DNA of 33,988 bases from Pelagerythrobacter aerophilus (GTDB lineage: Bacteria; Pseudomonadota; Alphaproteobacteria; Sphingomonadales; Sphingomonadaceae). The notes beneath the pieces were generated by a model. That model did no database searches. It had not been told where the DNA came from and was given only the letters and a program-made list of their open reading frames with translations. Where the stretch lies: positions 1 to 33,988 of the forward strand of contig NZ_QXFK01000006.1 of assembly GCF_003581645.1 (NCBI RefSeq), read 5' to 3'. Each line of letters starts with the position of its first letter. The first letter of the stretch is position 1. Shown one piece after another: positions 3,174-24,577 of this stretch. The position numbers and the translations under genes are program-made.

Positions 3174-5906
3174 TCAAAACTTGCCGCGCACGGTGATGCC
3201 GTAAGTCCGCGGTTCCGCAAGAAAAGCGGAGAACGTTTGTTGCGGAGCCACGAAAGGCGTGTTGAAGGCCACCTGCGTATACCCAACGTCAAACAAATTA
3301 TTGACCCATCCCTCGATCGCGAAGCGATCCGCAATATTGGTTAGACCCACACGCCCGTTCACTACGACGAAGCTGTCCTGTTCCTTGCCGAAGATCAGGT
3401 CGGAACCGGTGTTGTAATCACCAGCCATACGAGCGTTCACGAAGACCAGGCCTTCGAGCCCACTGTCGCCGATTGGCGGCGTCCACGTAAGCGACGATGT
3501 TGCCACGATCTCTGGTGCATTCGACAGGTTGTCGCCTGGCAGCAAGCGTAGTGCGGGGTCGAGCGGTACCCCGGTATCGTCCCCGATAAGATTGTCTTCA
3601 AAGCTCGTATCAGAATAGGTGACGCCAAGGGTAATATCCAAATCACGAGCGGGCCGTAGATAGGTTTCGATCTCGACACCTTGAGCGATCACACCTGGTG
3701 CAACTTCATCGGAAGAGCATGCTCCGGTTGTCGCGCTTGCGTCCCTGTCGGCCCCGCCGAGATCGCTATCGCAACTATTGACCGTCTGCACGATGTAGAA
3801 CGCCCCATTGAACGTGTTCAACTGGAAGTTACTGAACTCTTGCCGGAAGCCTGCAATGCTAACCCCGAACTCGCGTGTCGAGTATTTGAGGCCGATCTCA
3901 TATGCATCGACTGTTTCTTCATCGAACTGCAGCGCGGCTGCCGAGATATTGGCCGGATCGAACGCAAGCGGATTTGACAGTGCAGACCTGTCGAGGTTGA
4001 AACCGCCCGCCTTGTAGCCGCGTGAATACGAACCGTAGACTAGCAGATCGGGAGTTGGCTTCCAGCTCAGGATAGCCGTGCCGGTAAACTCCTCTTCTTC
4101 GCGCGAGTCTTCGAGAGAAACTCCATCGAGCTCCGATGTCGAATTGCCTTGGCAGGAAAGGCTGATGATACCACCGGCCAGAGGTGCCAAAGTCGGAACA
4201 CCCAGAAAGCCTCCGAGCAGATTGCGGTTTGTCGGACAAACCGTGTTGTCGTTGCGGAAAGTTGCGTCGAAGTCCTTGGTTTCGTTCGTATAACGAAGCC
4301 CCAGCGTCAAATCGAGCGTATCCGTGATCGCAAAGATATTATGCGTGAAGAACGCGAAGTTCTCACTCGTCTGATTGTAGACCTCGCTGACCGTTCCCAA
4401 ATCGCTGATGCTTGCAAGGTTGTTGATACCTGCGAGGATCGCCGGGGTTGCAGCGCCGAATGCCGGGCTTCCGGTCAGCGTACCGTCCAATGCCGCCACG
4501 TTGGCACCCAGGCAATTGGAAGCCCCCGGATTGACCAAAGCCGGATTGATCGCGATCGCGATGCGGCACGCTACGAAATTGCCGTACTGGGTGCCGAACC
4601 GCAGATTATCACGCACCTGCAGTTCTTCATTGGCGTAATACGCGCCGATCAACCAATCCAGTTTGCCATCGAAGGCCTCACCGGTAAGGCGCAGTTCCTG
4701 AGTGAATGTTTCAAAGTCTCGAGCAAGAGCATTCTCGGTCGGAGCGCGGTAGAGAATATCGACAGTAGTGTAATCGGTGTCAGATCCCTGGCTGTTGGCA
4801 TATTCACGGTAGCCCGTGATAGACGTCAACGTGACGTTCCCGAAATCCCAATTGATCTCAGCCGAAATACCGTAGTCTTCGGTTTCGCCTTCATAGCTTC
4901 TGCCTGGCGTAGGGTACAGGTCGCGGTTGAATGTGTCTTGGGTGAGGGCACGCGGATCCTGCCCAAGCGCAAGCAACACGGGAACGATCGGATTTGCGGT
5001 ACTCGTCAGGGCGGCCCCATCCGATGGCCTCGTAAAGGGATCAAATCCAGCGCTGATCCGTGCAAGCGGAGCAAACTCGGGCTGGACGAACGTCGCGGCA
5101 CAGCACGCTTCGTCCTTTTTGGAATAATCCCCGACAAGGCGAATGGACAGGTCGTCATTGGGTTCGAACAGGAGCTGACCGCGGACCAGATAACGATCGC
5201 GATTGTTGATCGTCCCGCCGTTGGTAATATCGTTGTAGAAGCCGTCGCGCTCAAAGTAAACGCCGTCCACACGCGCAGCTACGGTGTCGCCAAGCGGAGC
5301 GTTTATGCCACCTTCGACGCGGATCGCATCATAGTTGCCATAAGTGAAGGCCCCGTATGCGCTGAAATCGAACTCGGGCGGTGCGGTGTAGATATTGATC
5401 AGGCCTGCCGATGAGTTCCGCCCGCCCAGAGTACCTTGGGGACCGCGAAGGATTTCGACCCTGTCGATAGGGCCGAGCTCACTCAGGGCGCTTCCCGAAC
5501 GAGAGCGATAGACTCCATCGACAAAAACCGCGACCGAACTTTCCAGACCAGGGTTGTCGCCGACCGTGCCGATACCGCGAATACGCGCGGAACCGTTAGC
5601 TTCGTTGCCGGTGGAAGACACCAGCAGGGACGGTGCAACCTGGTTCAGCTCACGTATGTCGCTGGCGCCCGAATTCTGGAGGGTTTCTCCGGAAACAGCT
5701 GACACGGCGACTGGAACATCCGCCAAGACCTGCGATCGCCCTTGCGCGGTAACAATGATTACGTTTTGGTCTTCGACATCGGCCCCTTCAACCAGATCCG
5801 CATCGGGTTCGCCAACATCCTGGGCGAAGGCGGCTGTCGGTGTGAAGGCAAGTGCCGCTGCCAATGCACCAAGGGCGCAATGGTGGCGTGATGGAAATCT
5901 TTTCAT
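3174..5906 (-). CDS. TonB-dependent outer-membrane receptor (left)
   Basis: This 910-residue outer-membrane receptor would import a ligand into the periplasm using TonB/ExbBD energy. It starts with a signal peptide (MKRFPSRHH... cut after about residue 28, AFA|QD) and a TonB-box-like 'NVIIVTAQ' at 48-55. A plug domain runs to about 175, with 'RVEILRGPQGTLGGRNSSAG' near 149-168. A long beta-barrel follows and ends in the aromatic residue typical of outer-membrane barrels (VRGKF). The ATG at 5906 has a strong Shine-Dalgarno (agaggagagg). It lies on the same strand as the P450/dehydrogenase operon, 166 bases downstream of it. Substrate is not predictable; the neighbours suggest a hydrophobic catabolic substrate rather than a siderophore (inference). 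Confidence 0.92.
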   Translation of the reverse strand: MKRFPSRHHCALGALAAALAFTPTAAFAQDVGEPDADLVEGADVEDQNVIIVTAQGRSQVLADVPVAVSAVSGETLQNSGASDIRELNQVAPSLLVSSTGNEANGSARIRGIGTVGDNPGLESSVAVFVDGVYRSRSGSALSELGPIDRVEILRGPQGTLGGRNSSAGLINIYTAPPEFDFSAYGAFTYGNYDAIRVEGGINAPLGDTVAARVDGVYFERDGFYNDITNGGTINNRDRYLVRGQLLFEPNDDLSIRLVGDYSKKDEACCAATFVQPEFAPLARISAGFDPFTRPSDGAALTSTANPIVPVLLALGQDPRALTQDTFNRDLYPTPGRSYEGETEDYGISAEINWDFGNVTLTSITGYREYANSQGSDTDYTTVDILYRAPTENALARDFETFTQELRLTGEAFDGKLDWLIGAYYANEELQVRDNLRFGTQYGNFVACRIAIAINPALVNPGASNCLGANVAALDGTLTGSPAFGAATPAILAGINNLASISDLGTVSEVYNQTSENFAFFTHNIFAITDTLDLTLGLRYTNETKDFDATFRNDNTVCPTNRNLLGGFLGVPTLAPLAGGIISLSCQGNSTSELDGVSLEDSREEEEFTGTAILSWKPTPDLLVYGSYSRGYKAGGFNLDRSALSNPLAFDPANISAAALQFDEETVDAYEIGLKYSTREFGVSIAGFRQEFSNFQLNTFNGAFYIVQTVNSCDSDLGGADRDASATTGACSSDEVAPGVIAQGVEIETYLRPARDLDITLGVTYSDTSFEDNLIGDDTGVPLDPALRLLPGDNLSNAPEIVATSSLTWTPPIGDSGLEGLVFVNARMAGDYNTGSDLIFGKEQDSFVVVNGRVGLTNIADRFAIEGWVNNLFDVGYTQVAFNTPFVAPQQTFSAFLAEPRTYGITVRGKF

Positions 5907-6020
5907 GTGCCTCTCCTCTAAGAATGTGCCCCATCCTAGGCACTAGTCGATGTTAGAAACGATGCCGATAAGCGCGTTTCATTTCAAGACTTGGTAGATG
6001 AATTGACGGATTATTTCACA

Positions 6021-6052
6021 TTGTCGACAAGCATGTGGCAAAAATGCCATGC
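6021..6052. promoter_or_regulatory. Palindrome plus hairpin between dehydrogenase and TonB genes
   Basis: The spacer 5907-6072 holds two adjacent symmetric sequences. One is a perfect 10-bp palindrome TTGTCGACAA at 6021-6030. The other is an inverted repeat with arms gcatgtggca (6031-6040) and tgccatgc (6045-6052) around AAAA. The palindrome has the GT-N2-AC core seen in several FadR-subfamily GntR operators; the hairpin could slow or end transcription between the two genes. Function is inferred only. Confidence 0.35.
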
Positions 6053-6072
6053 AGGTCACTACATGCAGGTTT

Positions 6073-7143
6073 CTAGTAGCCAGAAAGCTTGGAAAATCGG
6101 TCCTTTAACCAGCTCGACGAACCGAAGCTCTGCTCCAGCACGCGGGCGCGCTTGAGATAGAAGCCGACGTCGTACTCATCGGTCATGCCGATCCCGCCGT
6201 GCAGCTGGATGCCCTCGTTTGCCATGGTGTGCATAACGCGGTTGGCTTCCGCCTTGGCGATGGTCGCCGCGCGCGCCACGCCGAAGCCGGCATCGACGGC
6301 TTGCAGGCCCGCCTCGACCGCGCTGCGCATCTGGGCGAGATCGGCGAAGAGGTCCGCCATGCGGTGTTGCAGCGCCTGGAAGCTCGCCAGCACCTGGTTG
6401 AACTGCACGCGCTGCTTCAGATAGTCGAGCGTGTCGTCGAACACTTGCTGCGCCATGCCGAGCATTTCGGCTGCGGTGAGCACGCGCGCGCGGTCGAGCA
6501 CGTCATCGAGCAGGTTGTCGCCGCCATTGGCGAGCTTCTCCGCCGCCGCGCCGTCGAAGGTGACGTCGGCATGGCTGCGCTGGTCGGTCAGCTTGCGGGT
6601 GGTGAGCGCGACGCCGTCGCCTTTCTCGACCAGGTAAAGCCCGTCCTTCGCCGCGACGACGAACAGGTCCGCACCATGCGCTTCATGGACGAAGGCCTTG
6701 GTGCCGCTCAGCTTGCCGTCGGACACACTGGTCTCGATCTTCGCAGGATCGTGGCTCGGCCCTTCGTCGACGGCGAGGGTGGCGATGGCCTCGCCGCTCG
6801 CCAGCCTGGGCAGCCACCTGGCCTTCTGCTCGTCGCTGCCGCCAAGAACGATCGCCGAGGCGGCGACGGTGTTCATCACCAGCGGGCTGGCGGTGAGCGT
6901 CTTGCCGAGTTCCTCGACGACGAGGCCCGCGGACAGGAAGCCGAAGTCCGACCCGCCATGCTCTTCGGGGATGATGACCCCGGCCCAGCCCATCTGCGCC
7001 ATCGTCGCATAGGCGTCGCGGTTGAAGGCTTCGGGCTCGCCGCTGGCGCGGACCTTGCGGAATTCGGTGACCGGGCTTTCGTTGACGGTCCATTCGCGCG
7101 CCATATCTCGCAGCATTTCCTGTTCTTCGTTGAGAACGGCCAT
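6073..7143 (-). CDS. Acyl-CoA dehydrogenase, short subunit (left pair)
   Basis: This 356-residue flavoprotein of the acyl-CoA dehydrogenase family would oxidise an acyl-CoA to the 2-enoyl-CoA with FAD. The N-terminal helical domain begins 'MAVLNEEQEMLRDMAREW', then 'GWAGVIIPEEHGG'. The C-terminal domain has 'QRVQFNQVLASFQALQHRMAD' and the FAD-contacting 'GIQLHGGIGMTDEYDVGFYLKRA'. It lies 18 bases after a 403-residue dehydrogenase on the same strand. A short/long pair like this resembles the alpha2beta2 heteromeric dehydrogenases of mycobacterial cholesterol side-chain degradation, in which only one subunit carries the catalytic Glu (known of that family; not proved here). A very long open frame on the opposite strand (6199-8409) is an antisense shadow of this and the next gene. 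Confidence 0.9.
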   Translation of the reverse strand: MAVLNEEQEMLRDMAREWTVNESPVTEFRKVRASGEPEAFNRDAYATMAQMGWAGVIIPEEHGGSDFGFLSAGLVVEELGKTLTASPLVMNTVAASAIVLGGSDEQKARWLPRLASGEAIATLAVDEGPSHDPAKIETSVSDGKLSGTKAFVHEAHGADLFVVAAKDGLYLVEKGDGVALTTRKLTDQRSHADVTFDGAAAEKLANGGDNLLDDVLDRARVLTAAEMLGMAQQVFDDTLDYLKQRVQFNQVLASFQALQHRMADLFADLAQMRSAVEAGLQAVDAGFGVARAATIAKAEANRVMHTMANEGIQLHGGIGMTDEYDVGFYLKRARVLEQSFGSSSWLKDRFSKLSGY

Positions 7144-7161: not shown

Positions 7162-8373
7162 TTACTGGTGGTCGAGCATGCCGAGCACGCGCTTGGCGAT
7201 GATGTTGTTCTGGATTTCGGTCGAGCCGCCATAGATGGTGGTCGCCTTGCCGAAGAGCCACGCGCGCACGGCCCCGAGCTCGCCGTCCGAAAAGCCGTCG
7301 CCTTCCCAGCCGAGGCCCTGCAACCCGCGGATTTCGATCAGCAATTCGCTGCGTTCCTGGCTCAGCTTGGTGCCGAGCTTCTTGAGCACAGAGCTGATTT
7401 CGGAGACGCCGCCAGCTGCCTTGCTCTCTTCCATCGCGCGGCGCGCGGTGAGCAGGAAGCTGTTCCAGCGGATTTCGAAATCAGCGATCTTGTCGCGCAG
7501 CACCGCATCGGCGAGTTCGCCGTCGGCGCCCGTCGGCTGGTACTTCTTGGCGATATCGCCAAGGCTCTGGCCCATGAGTCGGGCGAGGCTGCCGCCGCCC
7601 GAGATGTTGGTGCGCTCGTGCTGCAGAAGGCGCTTGCCGATGGTCCAGCCCTGGCCTTCCTCGCCGACGAGGTTTTCCTTCGGGACCTTCACGTCGGTGA
7701 AAAAGGTTTCGCAGAACGGGCTGGTCCCGCTGATCATGGTGATCGGGCGGACTTCGACGCCGGGCGTGTCCATGTCGATCAGCATGAAGCTGATGCCCTT
7801 GTGCTTGTCGCTCTTGTCGGTTCGTACAATTGCAAAGCACTTGTCGGCCCATTGGCCGCCGCTGGTCCAGGTCTTCTGGCCGTTGACAAGGTAGTGGTCG
7901 CCCTTGTCCTCGGCAAAGGTCTGGAGGTTCGCGAGGTCAGAGCCGGCATTGGGTTCCGAATAGCCCTGGCACCAGCGGATTTCGCCGCGGCAGATCGGCG
8001 GAATATGCTCCTGCTTCTGTGCCTCGTTGCCGTATTCGAGCAGCGTCGGGCCGAACATCATGACGCCCATGCCGCCGATCGGGTTGTAGGCACCCGCCTT
8101 GGCGAATTCCTGGTCGATGATCTTGGCCTGCGCCTTGGTGAGGCCGCCGCCGCCGTATTCCTTCGGCCAGGTGGGGGTGCCCCAGCCGCGCGCGCCCACG
8201 GCTTCGCGCCACTTGGTCTGCGCCGGCGTTTCATTGGTGGGGCCGTCCACGCCGGCCAGCGCGTTCGACTGGCCCTTGAGTTCGGCGGGAAAATTGTCCG
8301 CCAGAAACTGCTGCACTTCCGCGCGGAAGGCGTCTTCGTCGGTCTGGGTTGCGGGCTCGATTTGTGTGGCCAT
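7162..8373 (-). CDS. Acyl-CoA dehydrogenase, long subunit (left pair)
   Basis: This 403-residue member of the acyl-CoA dehydrogenase family has the middle-domain signature 'WCQGYSEPNAGSDLA' at about 134-148, 'NGQKTWTS' near 164-171 and the C-terminal 'TTIYGGSTEIQNNIIAKRVLG', all usual for complete FAD-dependent enzymes. The ATG at 8373 gives the normal family length. It follows the ferredoxin gene by 68 bases and precedes the short dehydrogenase by 18, so all are probably one leftward operon with the P450. It may form a heteromeric enzyme with its neighbour, acting on a bulky or branched acyl-CoA (inference). Confidence 0.92.
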   Translation of the reverse strand: MATQIEPATQTDEDAFRAEVQQFLADNFPAELKGQSNALAGVDGPTNETPAQTKWREAVGARGWGTPTWPKEYGGGGLTKAQAKIIDQEFAKAGAYNPIGGMGVMMFGPTLLEYGNEAQKQEHIPPICRGEIRWCQGYSEPNAGSDLANLQTFAEDKGDHYLVNGQKTWTSGGQWADKCFAIVRTDKSDKHKGISFMLIDMDTPGVEVRPITMISGTSPFCETFFTDVKVPKENLVGEEGQGWTIGKRLLQHERTNISGGGSLARLMGQSLGDIAKKYQPTGADGELADAVLRDKIADFEIRWNSFLLTARRAMEESKAAGGVSEISSVLKKLGTKLSQERSELLIEIRGLQGLGWEGDGFSDGELGAVRAWLFGKATTIYGGSTEIQNNIIAKRVLGMLDHQ

Positions 8374-8441: not shown

Positions 8442-8768
8442 TCAGTATTGTTGTTCGGGTAGGTGAAGAACCAATCCATCCAGCATCGGCTTCATCGGAA
8501 TCTGACAGGCAAGGCGACTGTATTCAGTGGTGCCTTCGGCGAACTGCAAGAGGTCGGCCTCCATTCCATCATGCATAAGCCGACCCACCTTGTCGATCCA
8601 TTCGGGATCGACATGCACATGACAGGTCGCGCAAGCACATACCCCTCCGCAATCGCCATCGATACCCGGCACGTCATTGTATAGCGCCGCTTCCCTGGCT
8701 GTCTCGCCTTCTTCTATTTCGACCTCCCGTCGCTCACCATCGCTAGCCACGAACGTAATTTTGATCAT
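8442..8768 (-). CDS. [2Fe-2S] ferredoxin, adrenodoxin/putidaredoxin type
   Basis: A 108-residue electron carrier. The cluster ligands are visible as C40-x5-C46-x2-C49 and C88, the adrenodoxin-type pattern. The start at ATG 8768 gives 'MIKITFVASDGERREVEIEEGET', the normal N-terminus; the open frame extends upstream into the P450 gene but that part is not homologous. It is 28 bases downstream of the CYP153 gene and most likely donates electrons to it. No ferredoxin reductase gene is present in the window, so the reductase must be encoded elsewhere. Confidence 0.93.
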   Translation of the reverse strand: MIKITFVASDGERREVEIEEGETAREAALYNDVPGIDGDCGGVCACATCHVHVDPEWIDKVGRLMHDGMEADLLQFAEGTTEYSRLACQIPMKPMLDGLVLHLPEQQY

Positions 8769-10059: not shown

Positions 10060-10260
10060 AAGAACTATTCCTTCTACATCTCAGGCCTGATCGGCCTTCA
10101 GTCATCCTTAAGGGAGACATCTCGTGCAGTCAATAAATCGTATACTCTTTTAGTCCCTTGCAGACACCAATCCCATCGGATAGTGTGCCGATCCAACGAA
10201 GGTTTGCTAATATCCTTATACTTTTTATTCGAGAGGTGCGGGTGTGCTGATGAGTGGCGG
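10060..10260. promoter_or_regulatory. Divergent promoter region between P450 and regulator genes
   Basis: This AT-richer 201-base spacer must hold the start of the leftward operon and probably of the rightward one. A TATACT at 10217-10222 could be a -10 box for the regulator gene; no good -35 box is seen. Candidate operators are a GTATAC palindrome at 10140-10145, with a GT-N2-AC core, and an inverted repeat ATCGG-N8-CCGAT at 10175-10192. The location suggests autoregulation and control of the P450 operon by the GntR protein, but this is inference. Confidence 0.45.
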
Positions 10261-10989
10261 ATGTCAGCGGTGAAGAAGGCCAAGCGTGCCCTTTCTCTTG
10301 CGCAAAGCATCGTGCGGGACATCGAGGCGGGTCGCCATAACCCGGGTGACAGGCTTCCGCGCGAGGATGAAATGCTCGCGCGTTACGAGGTTGCGCGCGC
10401 AACTTTGCGGGAGGCTTTGCGGTTCCTGGAATTGCAAGGGGTCATCCATCTCCAGCTCGGCCGTGGTGGAGGTCCCGTCGTAGCCCGTCCGCAGACCGGC
10501 GATTTTGCAAGCAGTTTGTCATTGATTCTGCATTTCATGGAAGCCGATTTGCGTGGTTTGCTTGAATTGCGCGAAGCAATTGCTCCCGATGTCGCAGGGT
10601 ATGCAGCCCAGCGTGCAACTACCGCTGATCTCAGCGCGTTGGCAGGGTGTCTGGCGGAATTGAGGCATCATGAAGCCTCTGATCAATTCGAGGAACTTAA
10701 TCGCAGATTTCACGACTTGTTGGGTTGGGCGAGCGGCAATCCGCTGTTCGGTTTGCTGACCTCTGCGATGCATCTGTTGACCCGCGAGTTTTCCCATTCG
10801 CTGGGATATTCGGCACAGGAACGGGCGGTGCAGATGAAGTTTCTGGTGCGGGTGCTCGAGGCAGTGCGGACTGGCGACAGCGCCGCGGCCCGTCAAGCAA
10901 TGAGCCGGTTGGTGGCCGGCTCTGCCGTCTATCTTTCGGAGCGCAGTCCCGAGCTGGTCTCGCAGCGGGTGCGGTGGGGGCAGCTGTAG
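10261..10989 (+). CDS. GntR-family regulator, FadR subfamily
   Basis: A 242-residue transcription factor. Residues about 8-77 form the winged helix-turn-helix ('LPREDEMLARYEVARATLREALRFLELQGVIHLQLGRGGGPVV'); 85-225 form an FCD-type ligand-binding helical domain ('LLELREAIAPDVAGYAA', 'LNRRFHDLL'). The ATG at 10261 is chosen over an upstream frame opening at 10183 because family similarity starts at 'SAVKKAKRALSLAQSIVRDI'. Where metal-binding FCD proteins have a His before 'ILEAI', this one has 'QMKFLVRVLEAV', so its effector site may differ. It is central between two catabolic operons and probably senses an acyl-CoA or other pathway intermediate. Confidence 0.9.
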   Translation: MSAVKKAKRALSLAQSIVRDIEAGRHNPGDRLPREDEMLARYEVARATLREALRFLELQGVIHLQLGRGGGPVVARPQTGDFASSLSLILHFMEADLRGLLELREAIAPDVAGYAAQRATTADLSALAGCLAELRHHEASDQFEELNRRFHDLLGWASGNPLFGLLTSAMHLLTREFSHSLGYSAQERAVQMKFLVRVLEAVRTGDSAAARQAMSRLVAGSAVYLSERSPELVSQRVRWGQL

Positions 10990-11039: not shown

Positions 11040-12182
11040 ATGGCGTTGAAGAGCCGAATATGCGAAATGCTGGGGATCCGGTACCCGATCCTGCTTGCCG
11101 GGATGGGCGGAGCGAGCGTTCCGGCGCTGGCGGCTGCGGTTTCGAATGCCGGCGGGCTCGGGGTCCTGGGTGCCGCGGCGTGTTCGCCCGATCAGTTGCG
11201 TGACTGGATTCGCCAGACCCGGGAATTGACCGACAAACCTTTCGGTGTCGATACGCTGCTCCCCGCGTCGGTCAGGCGCGGCTCTGCCCCTCAAAGCGGT
11301 GCTGCACCCCAAAATCCCATGGATCTGATGGGTGAATATCAGCAGTTCGCGCGCGACTTCATGGATCGTGAAGAGCTTCCGGAGGTCGATGCTGCCGCCG
11401 CCATGCGGGCGGCGGGCGCGCCTGAAATGGGCAAGGGCGGCCCGCAGTTGTTCTCGAAGGAATTCTTTGAGGCGCAGATGGAAGTGGTGATCGAGGAAAA
11501 GGTGCCGGTTTATGCTGCCGGCCTTGGCAATCCTGAACCCTGGATGGATCGGCTCCATGCCAATGGCACCAAGGTCATGGCGGTGATCGGCAAGGTCAAG
11601 CACGCCGAACAGGTCGTCGGGTCGGGCATCGACATGATCGTCGCGCAAGGGCACGATGGCGGAGGTCACAACTCGCCGATCGGGACTATTTCCTTGATTC
11701 CCCAGGTGGTCGACGCCGTTGGCGATCGTGTTCCTGTCCTTGGGGCCGGCGGTATCTCGGATGGCCGGGGTGTTGCCGCTGCGATGATGCTGGGGGCAGA
11801 GGGCGCGTGGGTCGGCACGGCATTTCTCGCGACCGAGGAAGCGGGCATCGAGCGCTTCCAGAAAGAGGCGATCACCGAAAGCGGCGATACCGATACGGTC
11901 GTTAGTCGATCGCTTACCGGCAAACCGGCGCGCATGATCCGGAACAAATGGGCCGACGCCTGGGTGCAGGCCGGAAAGGAACCTCTGCCGATGCCCTATC
12001 AGTCGATGATCTCCGGCCCGGTCATGGCCTCCGGGATCAAGGCCGAGCGCAAGGATGTCATCCCCGGCTTCGCGGGGCAAGGCATCGGCCTGATCGATTC
12101 GATCCGGCCTGCCGCCGAAGTGATGCGCGACCTGGTCGATGGAGCCGAGAAGGCGTTGGCGTCCGCTGGTATCTACAAGTGA
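11040..12182 (+). CDS. Nitronate monooxygenase-family FMN protein
   Basis: A 380-residue TIM-barrel flavoprotein of the nitronate monooxygenase / 2-nitropropane dioxygenase family. Visible motifs are 'YPILLAGMGGASVPALAAAVSNAGGLG' at the N-terminus, 'AQGHDGGGH' (202-210) with the His used as catalytic base in the family, and the FMN-phosphate loop 'AGGISDGRG' (236-244) followed by 'GAEGAWVGTAFL'. ATG 11040 has an agaggaag Shine-Dalgarno. Relatives include true nitronate oxidases but also enoyl reductases and IpdC of steroid ring degradation. In this operon an oxidoreductase role on a CoA-thioester or ring intermediate is more likely than nitroalkane detoxification (inference). Confidence 0.88.
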   Translation: MALKSRICEMLGIRYPILLAGMGGASVPALAAAVSNAGGLGVLGAAACSPDQLRDWIRQTRELTDKPFGVDTLLPASVRRGSAPQSGAAPQNPMDLMGEYQQFARDFMDREELPEVDAAAAMRAAGAPEMGKGGPQLFSKEFFEAQMEVVIEEKVPVYAAGLGNPEPWMDRLHANGTKVMAVIGKVKHAEQVVGSGIDMIVAQGHDGGGHNSPIGTISLIPQVVDAVGDRVPVLGAGGISDGRGVAAAMMLGAEGAWVGTAFLATEEAGIERFQKEAITESGDTDTVVSRSLTGKPARMIRNKWADAWVQAGKEPLPMPYQSMISGPVMASGIKAERKDVIPGFAGQGIGLIDSIRPAAEVMRDLVDGAEKALASAGIYK

Positions 12183-15854: not shown

Positions 15855-16945
15855 TGGATTTCGGACTTTCGCAAGACCAAGAGATGCTCTGCGACGCGAT
15901 CAGCCGCACTCTTGCTGATACTTGTCCGCTCGATCATGTGCGCGAATGCGCGGAGGGCTCGGTTCCCTTCAGCGACAACGTGCGTTCGGCGCTGGGCGAA
16001 ATCGGCATTTGGGGAATGATGGTTCCCGAGCAACATGACGGGCTCGGGATGACAATGCTCGATGCCGCCGCTGTGGCCGAGCAGCTCGGCTATGCCGTCG
16101 CGCCGGTGCCTTTTATCGGTGCCCATGTACTGGCACCCCTTGCGCTGGCACAGGGCGGTAGCGAGGAGTTGAAGGCGCACTGGCTGCCGAGGATAGCGAA
16201 GGGCGAGGCGCAAATCGCCGTCGCGATCGCGGAAACGGTGGAGATCCGGGACCGGGCAGGCGTGGACTTCGACGGCGCAAAGCTCGACGGAACGGCTTTG
16301 TTCGCGCTCGACTTCCTGGAAGCCGACGCGTTTCTGGTAGCCGATACCGCCGGTCGTATGCACTTCGTAGCTGGCGATGCTGCGGGTCTGGAGAAGGTTG
16401 CTCTCAAAACGATCGACCGCACCCGGAGCGTAGGGGAGCTGCGGTTTTCTGGCGTAGCGGGCGAGGCTCTCGCGGACGATGGTGGGGCCACAGTCAGGCG
16501 CCTGCGGGACGCCGGCCGGGTGCTCCTGGCCGCCGATAGCCTCGGTGCGGGCCAGGCTATGATCGAAAAAGCGGTCGACTATGCCGGGCAGCGCGAACAG
16601 TTCGGACGAGTGATCGGCAGCTTCCAGGCGGTCAAGCATATGTGCGCGGAAATGGCTGCCCGCCATGAACCATGCCGTTCGCTGGTCTGGTATGCCGCCC
16701 ATGCGTTCGATGCGACGCCCGACGAGGCTTCGCTGGTGGCATGCCATGCCAAATCACATACGGGCGAAGTCCACCGTTTTGTCGCCCGAACCTCAACCGA
16801 GGTGCATGGGGGGATGGGTTTTACCGATCTCCTAGGTCTGCATTTCTGGTTCAAGCGAATCGGTTTCGACCGCCAGGTTCTGGGAAGTCCCGAAGCGGTC
16901 CGGGCCGAAGCAGCGGCCTTGCAGGGGTGGACGCAGGTCGCATGA
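15854..16945 (+). CDS. Acyl-CoA dehydrogenase, short subunit (right pair)
   Basis: This 363-residue acyl-CoA dehydrogenase-family protein starts 'MDFGLSQDQEMLCDAISRTLADT'. It has 'GIWGMMVPEQHDGLGM', the helical 'QREQFGRVIGSFQAVKHMCAEMA' and the C-terminal 'TEVHGGMGFTDLLGLHFWFKRI'. It overlaps the long dehydrogenase by one base. The shorter length and divergent middle domain fit the second subunit of a heteromeric enzyme. Which of the two carries the active-site Glu cannot be settled by eye. Confidence 0.9.
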   Translation: MDFGLSQDQEMLCDAISRTLADTCPLDHVRECAEGSVPFSDNVRSALGEIGIWGMMVPEQHDGLGMTMLDAAAVAEQLGYAVAPVPFIGAHVLAPLALAQGGSEELKAHWLPRIAKGEAQIAVAIAETVEIRDRAGVDFDGAKLDGTALFALDFLEADAFLVADTAGRMHFVAGDAAGLEKVALKTIDRTRSVGELRFSGVAGEALADDGGATVRRLRDAGRVLLAADSLGAGQAMIEKAVDYAGQREQFGRVIGSFQAVKHMCAEMAARHEPCRSLVWYAAHAFDATPDEASLVACHAKSHTGEVHRFVARTSTEVHGGMGFTDLLGLHFWFKRIGFDRQVLGSPEAVRAEAAALQGWTQVA

Positions 16946-17008: not shown

Positions 17009-18619
17009 GTGATCGACTGGAACCTTGGCGACATCCTTGATGCAATCGAACCTGCGGTCCCGGAAGATGCTCCGGCGCTGATTCACGGCGACCGGATCAT
17101 TAGCTGGCCCGAAATGTCGAAGCGTTCGAACAATTTGGCGCGCAATCTGCGCGCGCAAGGTGCAGGCGACGGGGCGAAGATAGCCTTCTACATGCGCAAC
17201 CGTTCCGAATACGGGGAATTGATGGCCGCGTGCTTCAAGGGCCGCCTCACGCACGTGAACATCAATTATCGTTACCGTCCCGAGGAGGTTTTCTACATCT
17301 TCGACGATTCCGATAGCGAGGTAATTGTTTACAGTTCCGAGTTCCGCGACTGCATTCTTGAACTGAAGGAACGGTTGACCAAGGTTCATACATTTGTAGA
17401 AATCGGCGATGCTTCGCAGATCGCTTCCTTCGCGCTTCCTTACGAAAAACTTGTAGAAGGTAACGGCGCGCCTCTCGATATCGAGCGTTCTCCCGATGAC
17501 CTGCTGTTCATATATACAGGCGGTACCACCGGCATGCCCAAGGGCGTGATGTGGCGACACGATGATATGCGCAAGGCTCAGCTCGACGCGCAAAAGCTGC
17601 TGGGTCCGGTTCCCCAGACCATGGAGGAAATGGTGGCCCTGGTGAAGCAGGGCGAGCTTGCGCGCATCACTTTGCCGGCGTGCCCGCTGATGCATGGAAC
17701 CGGGTTCATTACTGCTATTGGCACGCTCATGTCGGGCGGGGCCATCGTCACGCTGTCCGATCCATCCTTCGACGCGGAAGAATTGTGGGATGCGGTGGAC
17801 CAGCACAAGGTGCAGAGCATCGCCATTGTCGGTGACGCTTTTGCCAAACCCATGCTGCAGGCGCTGGACGCCCACCCGAAGCGCTGGGACACGAGCAGCC
17901 TGATTTCGATCATCTCGTCCGGCGTCATGTGGAGTAAACAGGTAAAGGCGGGCCTGTGCAAACATATCCCCCAGGTCATCCTCATGGACAGTTTTGGCGC
18001 TTCGGAAGGGCTGGGCTACGGCTTGTCGGTGACGACCGCACAGGGCGGCACCAACACCGCGAAATTCGGGATCGGGGAATTTTGCGACGTATTCGACGAG
18101 AACGACCGGAAGGTCGAGGCGGGGAGCGGCGTGCCCGGCTTTATTGCCCGCAAGGGCGCAATCCCCACAGGATACTACAAGGACCCGGAAAAGTCGGCCA
18201 AGACTTTCAGGACGATCGATGGCGTGCGTTACTCCATCCCGGGCGACTGGTGCCGGGTGGAATCCGATGGAAGCCTGACCTTGCTGGGCCGCGGCAGCGT
18301 CTGCATCAACACCGCAGGTGAAAAGGTTTACCCCGAGGAGGTGGAGGAAGTGCTCAAAACCCATCCCGCCATTGCCGACGCGCTTGTCGTCGGGGTGCCT
18401 GACGAAAAATGGGGCGAAGCGGTGACCGCTGTGGTGCATTTGACCCAGGATGCGGACTTCGACGCGCAAGCGATCAAGGATCACGTGCGCCAGCAACTGG
18501 CAGGTTACAAAACGCCCAAGGCGATTTGCCCAACGCAAACCGCCTTGCGCGCGTCAAACGGCAAGGCGGATTATACTACGGCTAAAGACATCGCGAAAGC
18601 GGGTGCCGGGGCCTCGTGA
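17009..18619 (+). CDS. Acyl-CoA synthetase, FadD19/FadD17-like
   Basis: This 536-residue adenylate-forming enzyme would activate a carboxylic acid to its CoA thioester using ATP. The ATP-binding loop is 'YTGGTTGMPKGVMWRHDD' at 169-186, followed by 'DSFGASEGLGYG' and 'LGRGSVCINTAGEKVYPEEVEE'. The C-terminal 'ASNGKADYTTAK' holds the Lys expected for adenylation. The 'GVMWRHDD' form and overall layout resemble actinobacterial FadD19/FadD17, which activate steroid side chains; the exact substrate here is unknown. It starts at GTG 17009 after ggagagagga, and its stop overlaps the next GTG. Confidence 0.9.
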   Translation: MIDWNLGDILDAIEPAVPEDAPALIHGDRIISWPEMSKRSNNLARNLRAQGAGDGAKIAFYMRNRSEYGELMAACFKGRLTHVNINYRYRPEEVFYIFDDSDSEVIVYSSEFRDCILELKERLTKVHTFVEIGDASQIASFALPYEKLVEGNGAPLDIERSPDDLLFIYTGGTTGMPKGVMWRHDDMRKAQLDAQKLLGPVPQTMEEMVALVKQGELARITLPACPLMHGTGFITAIGTLMSGGAIVTLSDPSFDAEELWDAVDQHKVQSIAIVGDAFAKPMLQALDAHPKRWDTSSLISIISSGVMWSKQVKAGLCKHIPQVILMDSFGASEGLGYGLSVTTAQGGTNTAKFGIGEFCDVFDENDRKVEAGSGVPGFIARKGAIPTGYYKDPEKSAKTFRTIDGVRYSIPGDWCRVESDGSLTLLGRGSVCINTAGEKVYPEEVEEVLKTHPAIADALVVGVPDEKWGEAVTAVVHLTQDADFDAQAIKDHVRQQLAGYKTPKAICPTQTALRASNGKADYTTAKDIAKAGAGAS

Positions 18620-20253
18620 GCCATTCGCCCCCTCCTGACTATGATGTCGTAATCGTCGGGGCCGGGTTCAGCGGAATATACCTGCTTTACAAGCTGCGTC
18701 AGGCGGGGTTCGATGTTCTGCTGGTAGACGCAGCGGAGCAGCCGGGCGGAATCTGGTACTGGAACCGCTATCCGGGAGCACGGGTCGATTCCCAGGTTCC
18801 ACTTTACGAATTTTCCATTGCGGAAGTATGGAAAAGCTGGACGTGGAGCGAACGATTTCCAGGCTGGGAAGAACTGCGCGCCTATTTCCTCCACGTCTGC
18901 GATACGCTCGACCTCTGGCCGGCAATGCGAATGAAAACACGGGTCGAAAGCGCGCCGTTCGATGAAGACACCGCCTGCTGGCGATTGAAGCTCGACGATG
19001 GCGGAAAAGTAAGCGCGCGTTTCCTCTTGCCGGCCCTGGGGTTCGCCTCGAAACCCTACATTCCCGATATCCTGGGCCTTAGCGATTTCGAAGGCGAATG
19101 GTGCCATACCGCCCGCTGGCCGCAGGAAGGCATCGACCTTTCCGGCCGCCGGATCGCCCTGATCGGCACGGGTGCCAGCGGCGTACAGGTGGCGCAGGAG
19201 GCGGCAAGCTGTGCGGAGCAGCTGACGCTTTTTCAGCGAACCCCGATTCTCGCCCTTCCCATGCGGCAGGAAAAACTGGACGCTGATCGTCAGCTTCGCG
19301 AAAAATCCGAATATCCCGCTGTCTTCCAGAAAAGGCTTACGACAAGTGGCGGTTTCGAATGCCAATCGCTGGACATCTCGGCCCTGGCTGTGACCGAGGA
19401 AGAGCGGACTACGCATTTCGAGGATTTGTGGCAGCGAGGAGGGTTGCGCTTCTGGTATCATAATTTCGCTGACATACTGACGAACGAGGACGCCAATCGC
19501 CACGCCTACGAGTTCTGGCGTGACGAGGTGCGCGAGCGGATCTGCGACCCGACCATTGCCGAGAAGCTCGCTCCCGATGAGCCGCCACATCCCTTCGGGA
19601 CCAAGCGACCATCGCTCGAACAGAATTATTACGAGATCTTCGCACAAGACAATGTGACGCTGGTCGATCTGAACGACACCGCGATCACTCGCGTCACCGA
19701 GGCCGGGATAGAAACAGCCACTGGCATGATCCCGTGCGATCTCATTGTCTTCGCGACCGGCTTCGATGCCGGTCGTGGCGGGCTCATCGACATGAACATC
19801 ACCGGCCGCGGTGGGCTGGCGCTGGCAGAAGCATGGAAGAGTGAGATCAAAGCCTATCTGGGCATGGCCGTCGCCCAATTTCCGAACATGCTGTTCGCCT
19901 ACGGCCCGCTCAGCCCTTCAGGCTTTTCCAACGGTCCGACAAGCGCCGAAATCCAGGGTGACTGGATCTGCGATTTCCTGATCTGGCTGCGCGATAACAG
20001 GATCGGCCTTTTCGAAGCCGATGCGCTGGCCGAGCGAAGCTGGACCGATATGGTCGCCCAAGTAGGGTCGATGACGCTCTTCCCCAAGGCTGAATCGTGG
20101 TACATGGGCGCCAATATTCCCGGCAAACCCCGACAACTGATCAATTTCCCCAGCGTATCTGGTTACGCCGATCTATGCCACGATGTCGCACGGCACGATT
20201 ATCGTGGTTTTATCAGGAATACACTATCCGGTATGGAGACTGCGCCGAAATGA
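18616..20253 (+). CDS. Baeyer-Villiger monooxygenase (type I, FAD/NADPH)
   Basis: A 545-residue flavin monooxygenase. The FAD Rossmann motif is GAGFSG at 15-20, followed by 'GGIWYWNRYPGARVDS' (44-59). The BVMO fingerprint FxGxxxHxxxWP appears as 'FEGEWCHTARWP' (158-169). The NADPH Rossmann motif is GTGASG at 184-189. Such enzymes insert oxygen next to a ketone to make an ester or lactone. The pattern is closest to cyclohexanone/cyclododecanone monooxygenase relatives. GTG 18616 overlaps the stop of the acyl-CoA synthetase, and the gene ends overlapping a hydrolase, its natural partner. Confidence 0.93.
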   Translation: MSHSPPPDYDVVIVGAGFSGIYLLYKLRQAGFDVLLVDAAEQPGGIWYWNRYPGARVDSQVPLYEFSIAEVWKSWTWSERFPGWEELRAYFLHVCDTLDLWPAMRMKTRVESAPFDEDTACWRLKLDDGGKVSARFLLPALGFASKPYIPDILGLSDFEGEWCHTARWPQEGIDLSGRRIALIGTGASGVQVAQEAASCAEQLTLFQRTPILALPMRQEKLDADRQLREKSEYPAVFQKRLTTSGGFECQSLDISALAVTEEERTTHFEDLWQRGGLRFWYHNFADILTNEDANRHAYEFWRDEVRERICDPTIAEKLAPDEPPHPFGTKRPSLEQNYYEIFAQDNVTLVDLNDTAITRVTEAGIETATGMIPCDLIVFATGFDAGRGGLIDMNITGRGGLALAEAWKSEIKAYLGMAVAQFPNMLFAYGPLSPSGFSNGPTSAEIQGDWICDFLIWLRDNRIGLFEADALAERSWTDMVAQVGSMTLFPKAESWYMGANIPGKPRQLINFPSVSGYADLCHDVARHDYRGFIRNTLSGMETAPK

Positions 20254-21221
20254 ATGAAATGAAACCAATCCACGACGGGTCAACAGATATTGATCCCGTA
20301 TGGGCCGGCGACGGGGCGGATATACCCGAATGGTTCGCCTGGGCGCTGAGCGTGCCCCGTGAGGAAGGCTTCGTAGAGGTTGGTGGCGCGCGGGTGCATT
20401 ATCTTCGCTGGGGCAGGCGTGACCGGCCCAAATTGCTCATGACTCACGGTTTTCTCGCCCATGCCCGCTGCTTTGCCTTCATCGCACCGTACCTTGCCGA
20501 AGACTACGACGTGGTGGCGTTCGATCTGGCCGGTATGGGCGATAGCGAGATGCGCGGCGTGGCCGATATAGCTGCGCGGGGAAAGGAATTTGTCGAGATC
20601 AGCGAAGCGCTCGATTTGTTTGCGGATGGAAGCAGACCGACGATCATCGCCCATAGCTTCGGCTCGGGTGCAGCGCTGACCGCCGTTTCCCAATCGCCGG
20701 ATGCCTTCGCCGGCGTTATTGTCTGCGATCTCATGGTGATGCGGCCCGAAAAGCTGGAGAAATACTGGACCATGGGCAGATCGAGCCCCGGGTCGGGTAA
20801 TCCTGACAAACCGGTGCGACGCTACCCCACCTACGAAGCGGCGCGCGAGAGGTATATCCTGTCGCCGCCGCAGGCAGTTGGTGAGCCGTTCCTGATGGAT
20901 TACATGGCCTATCACTCTCTCCGCCGCGATGGCGAGGAGTGGACATGGAAGTTTTCTCCCGAAGTGTTCCGGCGCAGCAACAAGCCCGACGAATGGCTGA
21001 CAGTAGGCCAGAGGCTGGTCGATGCGCCCGGGCGCAAAGCGATTGTGTACGGCGAGAAAAGTCAGCTCTTTGATCGCGATTCCGCCCGCTATATCCGGGA
21101 ACTGGGAGGGGGAAAGATACCAATTGTTGCAGTGCCCGATGCACGCCATCATCTCATGCTGGATCAGCCGCTCGCGTTCGTCGCTGCGCTTCGGGCGGTA
21201 CTGGCCTTTTGGAGCCTCTGA
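20250..21221 (+). CDS. Alpha/beta hydrolase (esterase/lactonase candidate)
   Basis: A 323-residue alpha/beta-hydrolase. The oxyanion segment is 'MTHGF' (64-68), the nucleophile elbow 'AHSFGSG' places Ser136, and the His is in 'PDARHHLMLDQP' (H300 or H301). 'FDLAGMGDS' marks the usual strand after helix A. ATG 20250 overlaps the BVMO stop (ATGA); the frame is open further upstream but that is inside the BVMO gene. It most likely opens the ester or lactone made by the BVMO (inference from context). Confidence 0.88.
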   Translation: MNEMKPIHDGSTDIDPVWAGDGADIPEWFAWALSVPREEGFVEVGGARVHYLRWGRRDRPKLLMTHGFLAHARCFAFIAPYLAEDYDVVAFDLAGMGDSEMRGVADIAARGKEFVEISEALDLFADGSRPTIIAHSFGSGAALTAVSQSPDAFAGVIVCDLMVMRPEKLEKYWTMGRSSPGSGNPDKPVRRYPTYEAARERYILSPPQAVGEPFLMDYMAYHSLRRDGEEWTWKFSPEVFRRSNKPDEWLTVGQRLVDAPGRKAIVYGEKSQLFDRDSARYIRELGGGKIPIVAVPDARHHLMLDQPLAFVAALRAVLAFWSL

Positions 21222-21584: not shown

Positions 21585-21640
21585 GCAGTAAGCGGCGGAG
21601 CCAATTATCGTCGCACTGAAGAGATGGGAAGGGATGCTAT

Positions 21641-24577
21641 ATGACACTGAGAGCGATGGTGCTCGCCACTTCGGCCATCTTGGCTTGGCCGCAGATGGCT
21701 TTAGCGCAGGATCCCACAACTGATGAGGCGGAACCCCAAGGATCCGTAATCATCGTTACGGCCCAACGCCAATCTCAAAGTCTGCAAGAGGTGCCGATCG
21801 CGGTCAGTGCCTTCGATGCTACGGCTCTCGAAAGCCAGCAGATCGAAAACGCTGCTGACCTTCAATTGACGCTCCCGAACGTCTCATTTTCGAAGGGCAA
21901 CTTCACCGGGTCGTCCTTCACCATCCGTGGTATCGGCGATCTTTGTGTTGGTGTGACGTGTGACGCAGCGACGGCTATCCATATCAATGGTTCCCCTCTT
22001 TTTGGTACCCGGCTGTTCGAAACAGAATATTTTGACCTTGAGCGAATTGAGGTCCTACGGGGGCCGCAGGGCACCCTCTTCGGCCGCAACGCTACCTCGG
22101 GTGTTGTCAACCTTGTGACAGCCAAGCCTGACCTCGGTTCTTTCGGCGCGGCCGGAGAGTTCGAGTATGGGAATTACAACAGCATCAAGGCCGAAGGGAT
22201 GGTCAATGTCCCGATCGGCGATTCTATCGGCGTTCGGGTAGCCGGATTCTTTCTGAATCGCGACGGTTACACCACAAACCTTTTCGACAATTCGGATGTC
22301 GACGACCGAGACATGTACGCTGTTCGTGGTTCTCTTCGTTTTGAACCCGGTGCCGATACCACTCTCGACTTCATGGCATATTATTTCAGGGAAGATGACA
22401 CCCGTTTACGTAATCAAAAGCAGGCCTGCCAGCGTGACCCGCTCGGCGTGCTGGGTTGTCTGAACAATCGCCGCGACTTTGACATCACCAATGCCAATTC
22501 CACAGTCGGCGCAACGCTCAGTTCGCAAGAGTTCTTCGCTATTCAGGGAATTCCCTCAGTACTGGGATTGGGAAGCCTGTACGGCCCCGATGCATTTGCA
22601 GGATTCGATAAGCCCGACGATGTGCGCACGGTAAACACGGCGTATACTCCATTCTATTTTGCCGATGAAGTGCAGCTACAGGCCCGTCTCGAGCAGCGCA
22701 TCGGAGCTATGACACTGACTGCAACCGGTCTTTATCAGGACACCGAAGTCGATTCCCGGCAGGACTACTTTCTGGGCATTCAGGATCGTACCGCCTTTGC
22801 TACGGCCTTGAACGTGTTGTCCGGCTTCGCGGCCAACGGTTTGCCTACCGGCCTCCCCGCACCTGCACCGGCGTTCGTGCCAGGTTCGTCGGCGTATTTT
22901 ACCCCGATTGTGGAGGCTCTCATCCCCAATGGCCCAGGGGGCGTATTGTGCACCTCCGATAACGATGATGGGAACAGGGGCGCGTTCGAAGGTAATGTAT
23001 TGTGCGGCGAAACGCCGCTATCCTTCGACAGGTCTTCAGAGCAACGCGAATCCTGGAGCGGCGAAATCCTCCTTTCCAGTGATTTCGACGGAGCATTCAA
23101 TTTCCTGCTCGGAGGGATCTATGCAAAGTCCAAGACTACCGACAACAGTTACTATGTAAACTCATTCGCGCTTGACTACGCCAGTGCCATTCTGGGATCG
23201 TTTGGTACTTTGGCAGGCGGTGCACCGCCATCCTACTTCGCAACATCCATGTACCGCAACAATTCTCTCGAGGCTAATCTTGAGAGCTTCGGTGTGTTCG
23301 GGGAGATCTACGTCGACCTGACCGAGCGTCTGACCTTCACCGGAGGTTTGCGGTATAACGACGACAAGAAAGACGTGACTGCGCGCACGACCTTGATTAG
23401 CTTCCTCAATCCTTACGCGAATGACGGGGAGCCGTTCGACAGCCCGATCACTCCCTTAACCGGTCCCTCTGGTCTTTTTGATGCCGATCCTGGTACGCCA
23501 GGTGAGCAGCTGACGCAATTTAGAGAAGTAGGTTTCGATGAAATAACCGGGCGTGCGGTGCTCGACTACGAAGTTACGCCTGACAATTCGATTTACGCAT
23601 CTTATGCCAGGGGCTATAAATCCGGGGGTATCAACCCGCCCCTTTCGCCCGTTTTCGATGTGGCTGAAAGCTTCGGATCAGAAACCATCGACGCATTTGA
23701 AATCGGATCGAAAAATACCTTTGCGAATGGCGCACTGCAATTAAACGCTACTGCATTCTACTATAAGTATAGCGGGTTGCAGCTTAGCCGCATCGTCGCC
23801 CGTACCTCAGTTAATGATACTATCGATGCCGATATCTGGGGTGTGGAACTAGAGTCCGTTATCCGGCCCGATCCCGATTGGCTTGTCAACTTGACGTTCA
23901 GTTATCTCAACGCGGAAGTTGCCGGCGACCAGTTCTTCTCCAATCCGCGCGACCCGGGTGGCGGCGATCCTGATGCCGTCATCATCAAGGATATCAGCAA
24001 CGGTGCTAATTGTGCCGTAACCGGGCCAGCCCCCGGCGTGGCCGACGCATTCGTCGCCGGAGTGAACGCAGCTCTGGGTCTTCGTGGTCCCGAAGAATTT
24101 CCTAACGACGGCAATCTTGCGTCAAGCGGCGCATTCAGCATTTGCGATGTCTTGGCCGGAGCCGTTCCGGCGGGCAGCGGCCTTGCGGTATTAAGCCCTG
24201 GCGTAGAGGTCAACTTAAAAGGGAACAAGTTGCCGCAGGCCCCCGAAATGAAGGTTTCGATGGGTGTGCAGTACACCGCCACTTTCGACAATGGCATGAC
24301 TCTGGTTCCTCGCGTGGACGTAGCGCTGACTGGTGAGCAATACGGCAATATCTTTAACGGCAGGGTCAACCGGATCGAGCCATTCGTGCAAGCCAACGCG
24401 ATCGTGCAGTTGAACAGTGCGGATGAGCGTTGGTTCGTGCGCGGATTTGTTCAGAACATTTTCGACAGCAGCTCGGTGACAGGCTTGTACTTGACCGACG
24501 CATCCTCGGGGAATTTTACCAATATCTACACTTTGGATCCTCGTAGATATGGTGTTGCTTTGGGGTTCAGTTTCTAA
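21641..24577 (+). CDS. TonB-dependent outer-membrane receptor (right)
   Basis: This 978-residue receptor has a signal peptide (MTLRAMVLATSAILAWPQMALA|QD, cut after about 22), a TonB-box-like 'SVIIVTAQ' at 35-42, a plug domain with 'RIEVLRGPQGTLFGRNATSG' (about 135-154), and a barrel ending in 'YGVALGFSF'. ATG 21641 is preceded by gaaggga at a good distance. The plug has an unusual Cys pair ('DLCVGVTCDAATAIHING'), also seen in related sphingomonad receptors as far as I recall. It mirrors the left receptor at the far end of the island and may import the same or a related substrate. The gene is visibly less GC-rich than the enzyme genes. Confidence 0.92.
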   Translation: MTLRAMVLATSAILAWPQMALAQDPTTDEAEPQGSVIIVTAQRQSQSLQEVPIAVSAFDATALESQQIENAADLQLTLPNVSFSKGNFTGSSFTIRGIGDLCVGVTCDAATAIHINGSPLFGTRLFETEYFDLERIEVLRGPQGTLFGRNATSGVVNLVTAKPDLGSFGAAGEFEYGNYNSIKAEGMVNVPIGDSIGVRVAGFFLNRDGYTTNLFDNSDVDDRDMYAVRGSLRFEPGADTTLDFMAYYFREDDTRLRNQKQACQRDPLGVLGCLNNRRDFDITNANSTVGATLSSQEFFAIQGIPSVLGLGSLYGPDAFAGFDKPDDVRTVNTAYTPFYFADEVQLQARLEQRIGAMTLTATGLYQDTEVDSRQDYFLGIQDRTAFATALNVLSGFAANGLPTGLPAPAPAFVPGSSAYFTPIVEALIPNGPGGVLCTSDNDDGNRGAFEGNVLCGETPLSFDRSSEQRESWSGEILLSSDFDGAFNFLLGGIYAKSKTTDNSYYVNSFALDYASAILGSFGTLAGGAPPSYFATSMYRNNSLEANLESFGVFGEIYVDLTERLTFTGGLRYNDDKKDVTARTTLISFLNPYANDGEPFDSPITPLTGPSGLFDADPGTPGEQLTQFREVGFDEITGRAVLDYEVTPDNSIYASYARGYKSGGINPPLSPVFDVAESFGSETIDAFEIGSKNTFANGALQLNATAFYYKYSGLQLSRIVARTSVNDTIDADIWGVELESVIRPDPDWLVNLTFSYLNAEVAGDQFFSNPRDPGGGDPDAVIIKDISNGANCAVTGPAPGVADAFVAGVNAALGLRGPEEFPNDGNLASSGAFSICDVLAGAVPAGSGLAVLSPGVEVNLKGNKLPQAPEMKVSMGVQYTATFDNGMTLVPRVDVALTGEQYGNIFNGRVNRIEPFVQANAIVQLNSADERWFVRGFVQNIFDSSSVTGLYLTDASSGNFTNIYTLDPRRYGVALGFSF

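Follow-up and report, generated by a model that had tools for sequence, protein, structure and literature searches.

A probable mobile catabolic cassette of sphingomonads, with a predicted thiolase-fold retro-aldolase, for compounds branched at the beta carbon

Introduction

Branched and cyclic alkanes are abundant components of oil and are degraded slowly. Among the described systems closest to the genes treated here is the actinobacterial sterol side-chain set, to which heteromeric acyl-CoA dehydrogenases (ACADs) and a FadD19-type synthetase belong, and in which a thiolase-fold protein with a DUF35 partner (Ltp2-ChsH2), a large and small ACAD pair and a synthetase occur in one operon. The degradation of cyclohexylacetate by Arthrobacter reportedly employs a 1-hydroxycyclohexylacetyl-CoA lyase (EC 4.1.3.35) and a cyclohexanone monooxygenase; we know of no sequence or gene assigned to this lyase. 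CYP153 alkane hydroxylase operons pair the P450 with an adjacent 2Fe-2S ferredoxin. Here we analysed a 33,988-nucleotide stretch of Pelagerythrobacter aerophilus DNA (contig NZ_QXFK01000006.1; hereafter the window), in which a sequence-only reading had described a symmetrical catabolic island at 3174-24577, composed of two divergent gene runs each capped by a TonB-dependent receptor. About a dozen of these genes, present in sphingomonads and their relatives, probably serve to pass a branch point in oily molecules. Judging from sequence comparisons, we consider it reasonably probable that they form a mobile catabolic cassette for hydrophobic compounds that cannot pass through beta-oxidation because their beta carbon is branched. 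A search limited to one open-access library found no published account of this gene set.

Two thiolase-fold aldolases provide the reference points for the key enzyme. According to one report (PMC12329534), the bile-acid aldolase CtSal, of the Sal/Shy type, depends on Tyr302 and Cys304 of a YDCY motif, both essential by mutation, has Gly in place of the thiolytic Cys and Gln352 at the position of Ltp2 Tyr344, and yields an aldehyde; in Ltp2 the catalytic residues are Tyr294 of a YDHF motif and Tyr344.

Conservation of the gene set

Relatives were collected by a search of genome contigs, using a five-sequence thiolase alignment as the query, and the best 80 of 158 were kept; all of these are at least 87% identical, so the counts given below are not valid for remote versions. 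They come from Sphingopyxis, Novosphingobium, Sphingomonas, Qipengyuania, Erythrobacter, Hyphomonas, Henriciella and other genera, as well as several metagenome bins. Enough flanking DNA was available for 67 of the 80 genome loci, which form the base for presence and absence counts. In 16 of the 80 (L007-L022) a single island recurs almost unchanged, and these do not count as independent. Genes in the window were assigned by Pfam scans of the proteins, with subunit and synthetase types also compared with NCBIfam and structural relatives sought in the PDB. Every gene named in the sequence-only reading was present at about its expected place, with Pfam support; slight adjustments were made to the starts of the hydrolase (20250) and regulator (10261) and to the ferredoxin frame (8442-8768).

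Nine genes from the regulator to the hydrolase (leaving the Coq4-family gene uncounted) occurred together in 65 of the 67 loci, with identical order and strand in all 65. The P450 accompanied them in 63 loci, and both P450 and ferredoxin in 57. The real unit is this conserved core. On the reverse strand it comprises a CYP153-type cytochrome P450 (8797-10059) and a 2Fe-2S ferredoxin (8442-8768; PF00111, matched on a longer frame). Divergent from these, on the forward strand, are a FadR-like GntR/FCD regulator (10261-10989, with a longer start possible at 10183; PF07729, PF00392), a nitronate monooxygenase (NMO)/FabK-like flavoprotein (11040-12182; PF03060, 243.6 bits; 85 of 86 loci), an optional Coq4-family protein (12263-12955; PF05019; 37 of 67 loci), the thiolase-fold protein (12952-14124), its DUF35/ChsH2-type partner (14121-14597; PF01796, PF12172), a large ACAD subunit (14604-15854; PF02770, PF02771, PF00441), a small one (15854-16945; PF00441 and PF02771 without PF02770), an acyl-CoA synthetase (17009-18619; PF00501), a type I Baeyer-Villiger monooxygenase (BVMO; 18616-20253) and an alpha/beta hydrolase (20250-21221; PF12697), presumably an esterase or lactonase. 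The run from Coq4 to the hydrolase has the look of a single transcription unit, since its neighbouring genes either overlap or are separated by no more than 63 bp.

The expectation that the gene set would be kept together across sphingomonads and relatives was clearly borne out for the P450 and the right half. The symmetry of the two halves is partly superficial. The left ACAD pair (large subunit 7162-8373, PF02770, PF00441, PF02771; small subunit 6073-7143, PF00441 and PF02771 without PF02770; both reverse strand) is accessory, being found in 26 of 67 loci, and a receptor resembling one of four queries was likewise found in 26. Taken singly, the left receptor (3174-5906, reverse) occurred in 18 and the right one (21641-24577, forward) in 22 of the 67, both with PF00593 and PF07715. 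Nor are the ACAD pairs recent duplicates, a possibility we rejected because they share 30-43% identity: in loci without the left pair, left-pair queries matched the right pair at 35-43% for the large subunit (54 of 55 loci) and 30-35% for the small (54 of 54). The idea of two receptor-capped halves acting as one symmetrical pathway was not supported, since neither the left pair nor either receptor is a constant part of the locus and P450 and regulator flank the only conserved operator-like pair.

Arrangements vary outside and occasionally inside the core. In Sphingobium cloacae the operon itself contains the P450 and ferredoxin, which separate BVMO from hydrolase, and their usual place beside the regulator is taken by an enoyl-CoA hydratase. 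Five plasmids carry versions of the cassette with thiolase identities of 87-90%, in neighbourhoods that variously include efflux pumps, thioesterases, NUDIX and UbiB genes, ring-hydroxylating dioxygenases and, once, an alkane monooxygenase set; the plasmid records annotate the thiolase-fold protein as a 'transporter'. Twenty of 57 flanking open reading frames (ORFs) were scanned, and eight were transposase or insertion sequence (IS) ATPase genes. The other twelve comprised two hydrolases, an MFS gene, regulators, a transfer gene, a beta-lactamase-fold gene, unnamed ones, and a fatty-acid-desaturase-type gene with an adjoining reductase (L041); no recurrent extra pathway gene was seen among the 20. 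Separately, a 78% match to the NMO gene was noted on plasmid NZ_CP009294.1 of N. pentaromativorans US6-1 (71897-72960). The five plasmids, all with thiolase identity above 80%, do not include this record, so its cassette may be partial.

The predicted retro-aldolase and its partner

In the PDB, the thiolase-fold protein matched Ltp2 best (6ok1, E=6e-70), followed by 4u4e and then 9myr (E=2.4e-46), which we take to be CtSal; the top match of the DUF35 protein was chain B of 6ok1 (E=1.2e-26). Gly81, within an MGGASP motif, aligns with the nucleophilic Cys of the SCP2-thiolase 6hsj, and we rejected a true thiolase because the thiolytic Cys is thus replaced. The residues Y291-D-C293-F, the MGGASP motif with Gly81, and His341 are invariant in 85 of 85 loci. 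His341 occupies the position of Ltp2 Tyr344, where 6hsj also has His and 9myr has Gln. On the YDCF dyad and Gly81, the protein is probably a retro-aldolase.

Set against the Sal/Shy aldolase (PMC12329534), the cassette enzyme shares the Tyr-x-Cys dyad (YDCF versus YDCY), the Gly at the thiolytic position and a DUF35 partner, but has His341 where CtSal has Gln352. Its DUF35 partner carries a four-Cys zinc ribbon (CxxC-x10-CxxC in 85 of 85 loci) rather than the C3H1 finger of Shy and is not fused to a MaoC domain, and the operon is different. From Ltp2, as described in the same source, the enzyme differs by its YDCF and His341, which replace YDHF and Tyr344. The combination of a Sal dyad with a thiolase-like His is undescribed in the available part of PMC12329534. 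Unlike the Ltp2-ChsH2 system, the cassette has no MaoC domain fused or adjacent to its DUF35 protein (no MaoC family was found among the window proteins scanned with Pfam), adds a CYP153-type P450, a BVMO and a hydrolase, and lacks steroid-ring genes.

The remaining enzymes

The best PDB match of the P450 was CYP153A7 (3rwl, 621.8 bits), compared with at most 262 bits for CYP125-labelled chains; its heme motif FG[YF]GIHRCMG was present in 78 of 78 matched loci, and ferredoxin cysteines 40/44/46/49/88 were kept in 69 of 69. While the P450 and adjacent ferredoxin recall CYP153 operons, here they are embedded in a CoA pathway, and no ferredoxin reductase gene was recognised in the cassette. Elsewhere the same genome encodes another P450 (L093, G000:C6:574000-593500), which shares 48-52% identity with the CYP153-type enzyme.

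Type I BVMOs are marked by a FxGxxxHxxxW(P/D) fingerprint and two Rossmann motifs, and the window enzyme has both (FEGEWCHTARWP; GAGFSG and GTGASG). Among relatives, the fingerprint ends in Ser in 5 of 76 and begins with a residue other than Phe in 2 of 76. Its best PDB match was 6jdk (679.7 bits), ahead of 5j7x (511) and of chains labelled phenylacetone monooxygenase (424-438), cyclohexanone monooxygenase (362-410) and steroid monooxygenase (398-401). With 6ok1 heading the matches of the thiolase-fold/DUF35 pair, and 3rwl and 6jdk those of P450 and BVMO, the catabolic set proposed earlier, an Ltp2-ChsH2-like pair joined to a CYP153-type P450 and a BVMO, is supported.

An AHSFG or GHSFG motif was found in the hydrolase at 74 of 74 matched loci. 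The synthetase exceeds the cut-off of PRK07798 (698 versus 543 bits), a model into which FadD19 presumably falls. In NCBIfam, both large ACADs are nearest to the large subunit of pimeloyl-CoA dehydrogenase (PimC-like) and both small ones to IpdE2 and PimD, although in every case the score falls well short of the cut-off; the small subunit of the left pair (pair 1) is also AcrC-like, below cut-off too. In each pair the genes are adjacent, and a middle domain is present in the large and absent from the small subunit, a layout that predicts heteromeric (alpha2beta2) assembly. The HD, H and E of the Coq4-family HDxxHx11E motif were kept in 41 of 41 matched loci.

Proposed pathway and its alternatives

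The reactions suggested by these assignments, and their order, would be as follows. The CYP153-type P450, as its family suggests, and the ferredoxin would hydroxylate a terminal methyl group, giving entry from a hydrocarbon; dehydrogenases encoded elsewhere would form the acid, and the synthetase its CoA ester. The core ACAD pair (pair 2) would produce the enoyl-CoA, and a hydratase, not in the window copy and EchA19-like in a few relatives, the tertiary beta-hydroxyacyl-CoA. From this the thiolase-fold/DUF35 retro-aldolase, using its Tyr-Cys dyad, would split off acetyl-CoA (or propionyl-CoA), leaving a ketone for the BVMO to convert to an ester or lactone. This the hydrolase would open, and pair 1, where present, may process the resulting acid. 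For a BVMO and a hydrolase to act after a retro-aldolase is logical if the latter produces a ketone. A ketone can form only when the beta-hydroxyacyl-CoA is tertiary, its beta carbon bearing a branch or belonging to a ring. The same rationale underlies retro-aldol chemistry in sterol side chains and in cyclohexylacetate breakdown. The likeness to the Arthrobacter route is one of chemical logic only: CoA ester, desaturation, hydration, retro-aldol cleavage to a cyclic ketone, Baeyer-Villiger oxidation and lactone hydrolysis.

Two plasmids lend this pathway some support. That of S. fribergensis has an annotated alkane 1-monooxygenase, rubredoxin, choline-dehydrogenase and aldehyde-dehydrogenase set upstream of the cassette. 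A Rhodococcus DMU1 plasmid encodes a 58% identical thiolase homologue with a 39% identical DUF35-like stretch, a hydratase two genes upstream that is 46% identical to the S. cloacae hydratase, and, at a distance of about 10-13 kb, BVMO in two copies (36%), all in a stretch full of IS elements.

Several observations weigh against the proposed pathway. The window copy contains no hydratase, the S. cloacae-type hydratase was found in only 2 of 67 genome loci, and the eight homologues in the window's own genome are weaker (best 42% identity). That the aldolase yields a ketone is suggested solely by the adjoining BVMO, and CtSal gives an aldehyde. Neither the NMO-family gene nor Coq4 has a step in the scheme. 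At the thresholds used, two loci (L028 and L074) lacked BVMO and hydrolase, two others (L084 and L085) the P450, and the ferredoxin was undetected in 8 of 67. An AlkB neighbour occurred in only 1 of 86 loci, and the 41-kb DMU1 stretch had no match to the window P450, ACADs, synthetase or hydrolase.

The substrates are likely to be alkylcycloalkanes, which would pass from cycloalkylacetyl-CoA through a cyclic ketone to a lactone, or 3-methyl-branched alkanes or isoprenoids. The sequence-only reading had named a terpenoid, sterol-like or alicyclic compound; alicyclic or branched compounds are favoured, and a sterol-like one has become unlikely. More tentatively, the cassette may encode the retro-aldol/Baeyer-Villiger route by which alkylcycloalkanes are degraded (from cyclohexylacetate to cyclohexanone), with a further class of thiolase-fold retro-aldolase having a Tyr-Cys-His site, and may be moving from genus to genus within the Alphaproteobacteria as a 33-kb island. 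If true, this would supply candidate genes for an old enzymatic activity believed to be without a gene, and a new thiolase-fold aldolase active-site variant for biocatalysis; a small transferable gene set breaking hydrocarbons at a branch point would also be a marker for such degradation ability.

Within the same mechanism, the substrate might instead be an open-chain 3-methyl-branched alkane or isoprenoid, cleaved to a methyl ketone that the BVMO would turn into an acetate ester and the hydrolase into a primary alcohol re-entering the pathway. A type I BVMO, a hydrolase and a CYP153-type P450 suit acyclic chains as well as rings, but the sequence does not distinguish between them, and we hold this variant to be possible, if somewhat doubtful.

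Subterminal alkane oxidation is a distinctly unlikely alternative. The P450 would then form a secondary alcohol, the BVMO and hydrolase would split the ketone, the CoA enzymes would degrade acids only and the thiolase-fold protein would have an unrelated role. For such a route the P450, BVMO, hydrolase and an alcohol dehydrogenase would be enough, yet BVMO and hydrolase terminate the tightly packed run of CoA genes described above, and these two proteins are less well conserved than the aldolase and NMO proteins of the same loci, a comparison biased by the choice of loci on aldolase similarity.

A route in which the aldolase frees a 17-ketosteroid from a sterol or bile-acid side chain, with the BVMO and hydrolase opening ring D, is very unlikely: while the named proteins of solved structure nearest to the aldolase and DUF35 protein are Ltp2/ChsH2, the S. 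cloacae hydratase is nearest to EchA19 (305.8 bits, below the cut-off of 400) and the window's own genome has an above-cut-off KshA_C match (G000:C6:109869-110468), the P450 is far closer to CYP153A7 than to CYP125-labelled chains (622 versus at most 262 bits), no steroid-ring gene or MaoC hydratase occurs among the window proteins scanned, and KshA_C was found in only that one of 17 island-bearing genomes, which makes a steroid unlikely as the common substrate. The control set for KshA_C gave 0 of 14 over the cut-off and contained no recognised steroid degrader. Some sphingomonads may degrade steroids without KshA, a caveat to this count.

Spread of the island between genera

Positions 2994-31060 of the window are 99.4% identical at the nucleotide level, over 28 kb, to two genomes (G142 and G161) that belong to another genus of the same family, and L007-L022 are 98.7-99.8% identical to the window over the 8-21 kb compared for each. 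In a 2.5-kb rpoB fragment the window genome shares 84-87% identity with 16 other island-bearing genomes, so the island moved recently. Such exchange across genera, with about 99% identity retained, suggests present selection for the trait. A thiolase match at E<=1e-150 was found in 13 of 246 sampled genomes of the order, a patchy spread.

The shared DNA is wider than the 3174-24577 region, extending from 2994 to about 31060. It includes an efflux set of outer-membrane factor, MFS transporter and EmrA/HlyD-type adaptor (25018-29248, reverse; PF02321, PF07690, PF16576) and an MlaD-family protein (29854-30804, forward; PF02470). At its right lies a precisely defined end sequence (31030-31063, forward strand), followed by host DNA that differs between genomes. 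This sequence was found in 16 of 17 genomes, the exception being Sphingopyxis indica, where the shared DNA corresponds to 424-26480. The 16 right flanks represent 14 distinct sites, three sharing one site and the rest differing. A second right end is present in G250.

On this contig about 5.5 kb is missing from the left of the island. Of the missing part, 5.4 kb was located on another contig of the same genome (C18:5398-10782), where it is 96.4% identical to the G142 copy and encodes, by Pfam, NUDIX and UbiB/AarF-type proteins, two MarR-type regulators, a hydrolase and a thioesterase; the full island in G142 measures about 33.6 kb. The C18 segment adjoins a truncated AMP-binding gene. The original left end, a 150-bp sequence, was found in 7 of 17 genomes, most copies being without it. 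IS3-type DNA adjoins the truncated left end in the window and in the Q. mesophila copy; the IS3-type DNA at window 424-2994 is common to Sphingopyxis indica. Where the left end survives, it is preceded by a repeat of about 135-145 bp in direct orientation, which in three copies (L106, L117 and L121) resembles the right end at 79-82%. Elsewhere in genome G255, two further such repeats lie 16.5 kb apart (C2:891169 and C2:907705). A family of elements with these ends is suggested.

No recombinase was found among the Pfam-scanned genes of 3174-30804 or in the left part on C18. We also rejected an island-borne integrase: the tyrosine integrase at 31311-32504 lies outside the shared DNA, and a relative was found beside only 1 of 15 other right ends. 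That relative, 52% identical, is in the L018 genome (L114), whose flank has only this diverged integrase in common with the window; none was found within 3-7 kb beside the 14 other copies. Insertion into tRNA genes was likewise rejected, as one tRNA was found in 22 flank and end sequences.

Putative control of the divergent promoters

Two 16-bp AT-rich palindromes (10135-10150 and 10211-10226), 76 bp apart in the window, lie between P450 and regulator. Among L003-L086 and the window there are 28 distinct intergenic regions of 78, and in a leave-one-out test with mononucleotide shuffles both sites beat all 50 shuffles in 27 of the 28 (L034 failed); the left-out region had contributed to the matrix by which the sites of the others were chosen. 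The two sites are 74-76 bp apart in 22 regions and 136-142 bp apart in six. The window palindromes score 20.1 and 19.7; because, among 20 single-base shuffles of the window, one reached 19.0 and another 16.5, the operator claim rests on conservation and spacing. We infer that the FCD protein binds these putative operators and, through the spaced pair, would control the divergent P450 and regulator promoters. Elsewhere in the window no site rose above background, the best scoring 9.7, within the shuffle range. One operator set for the receptors and both halves was accordingly rejected; transcription from the P450 promoter might nevertheless extend into the left genes.

Three small ORFs had no match in PADLOC. 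Finally, the optional Coq4-family gene, with its HDxxHx11E motif intact, stands inside a catabolic operon, and UbiB/AarF-type genes are often near in relatives and present in the left part of the island.

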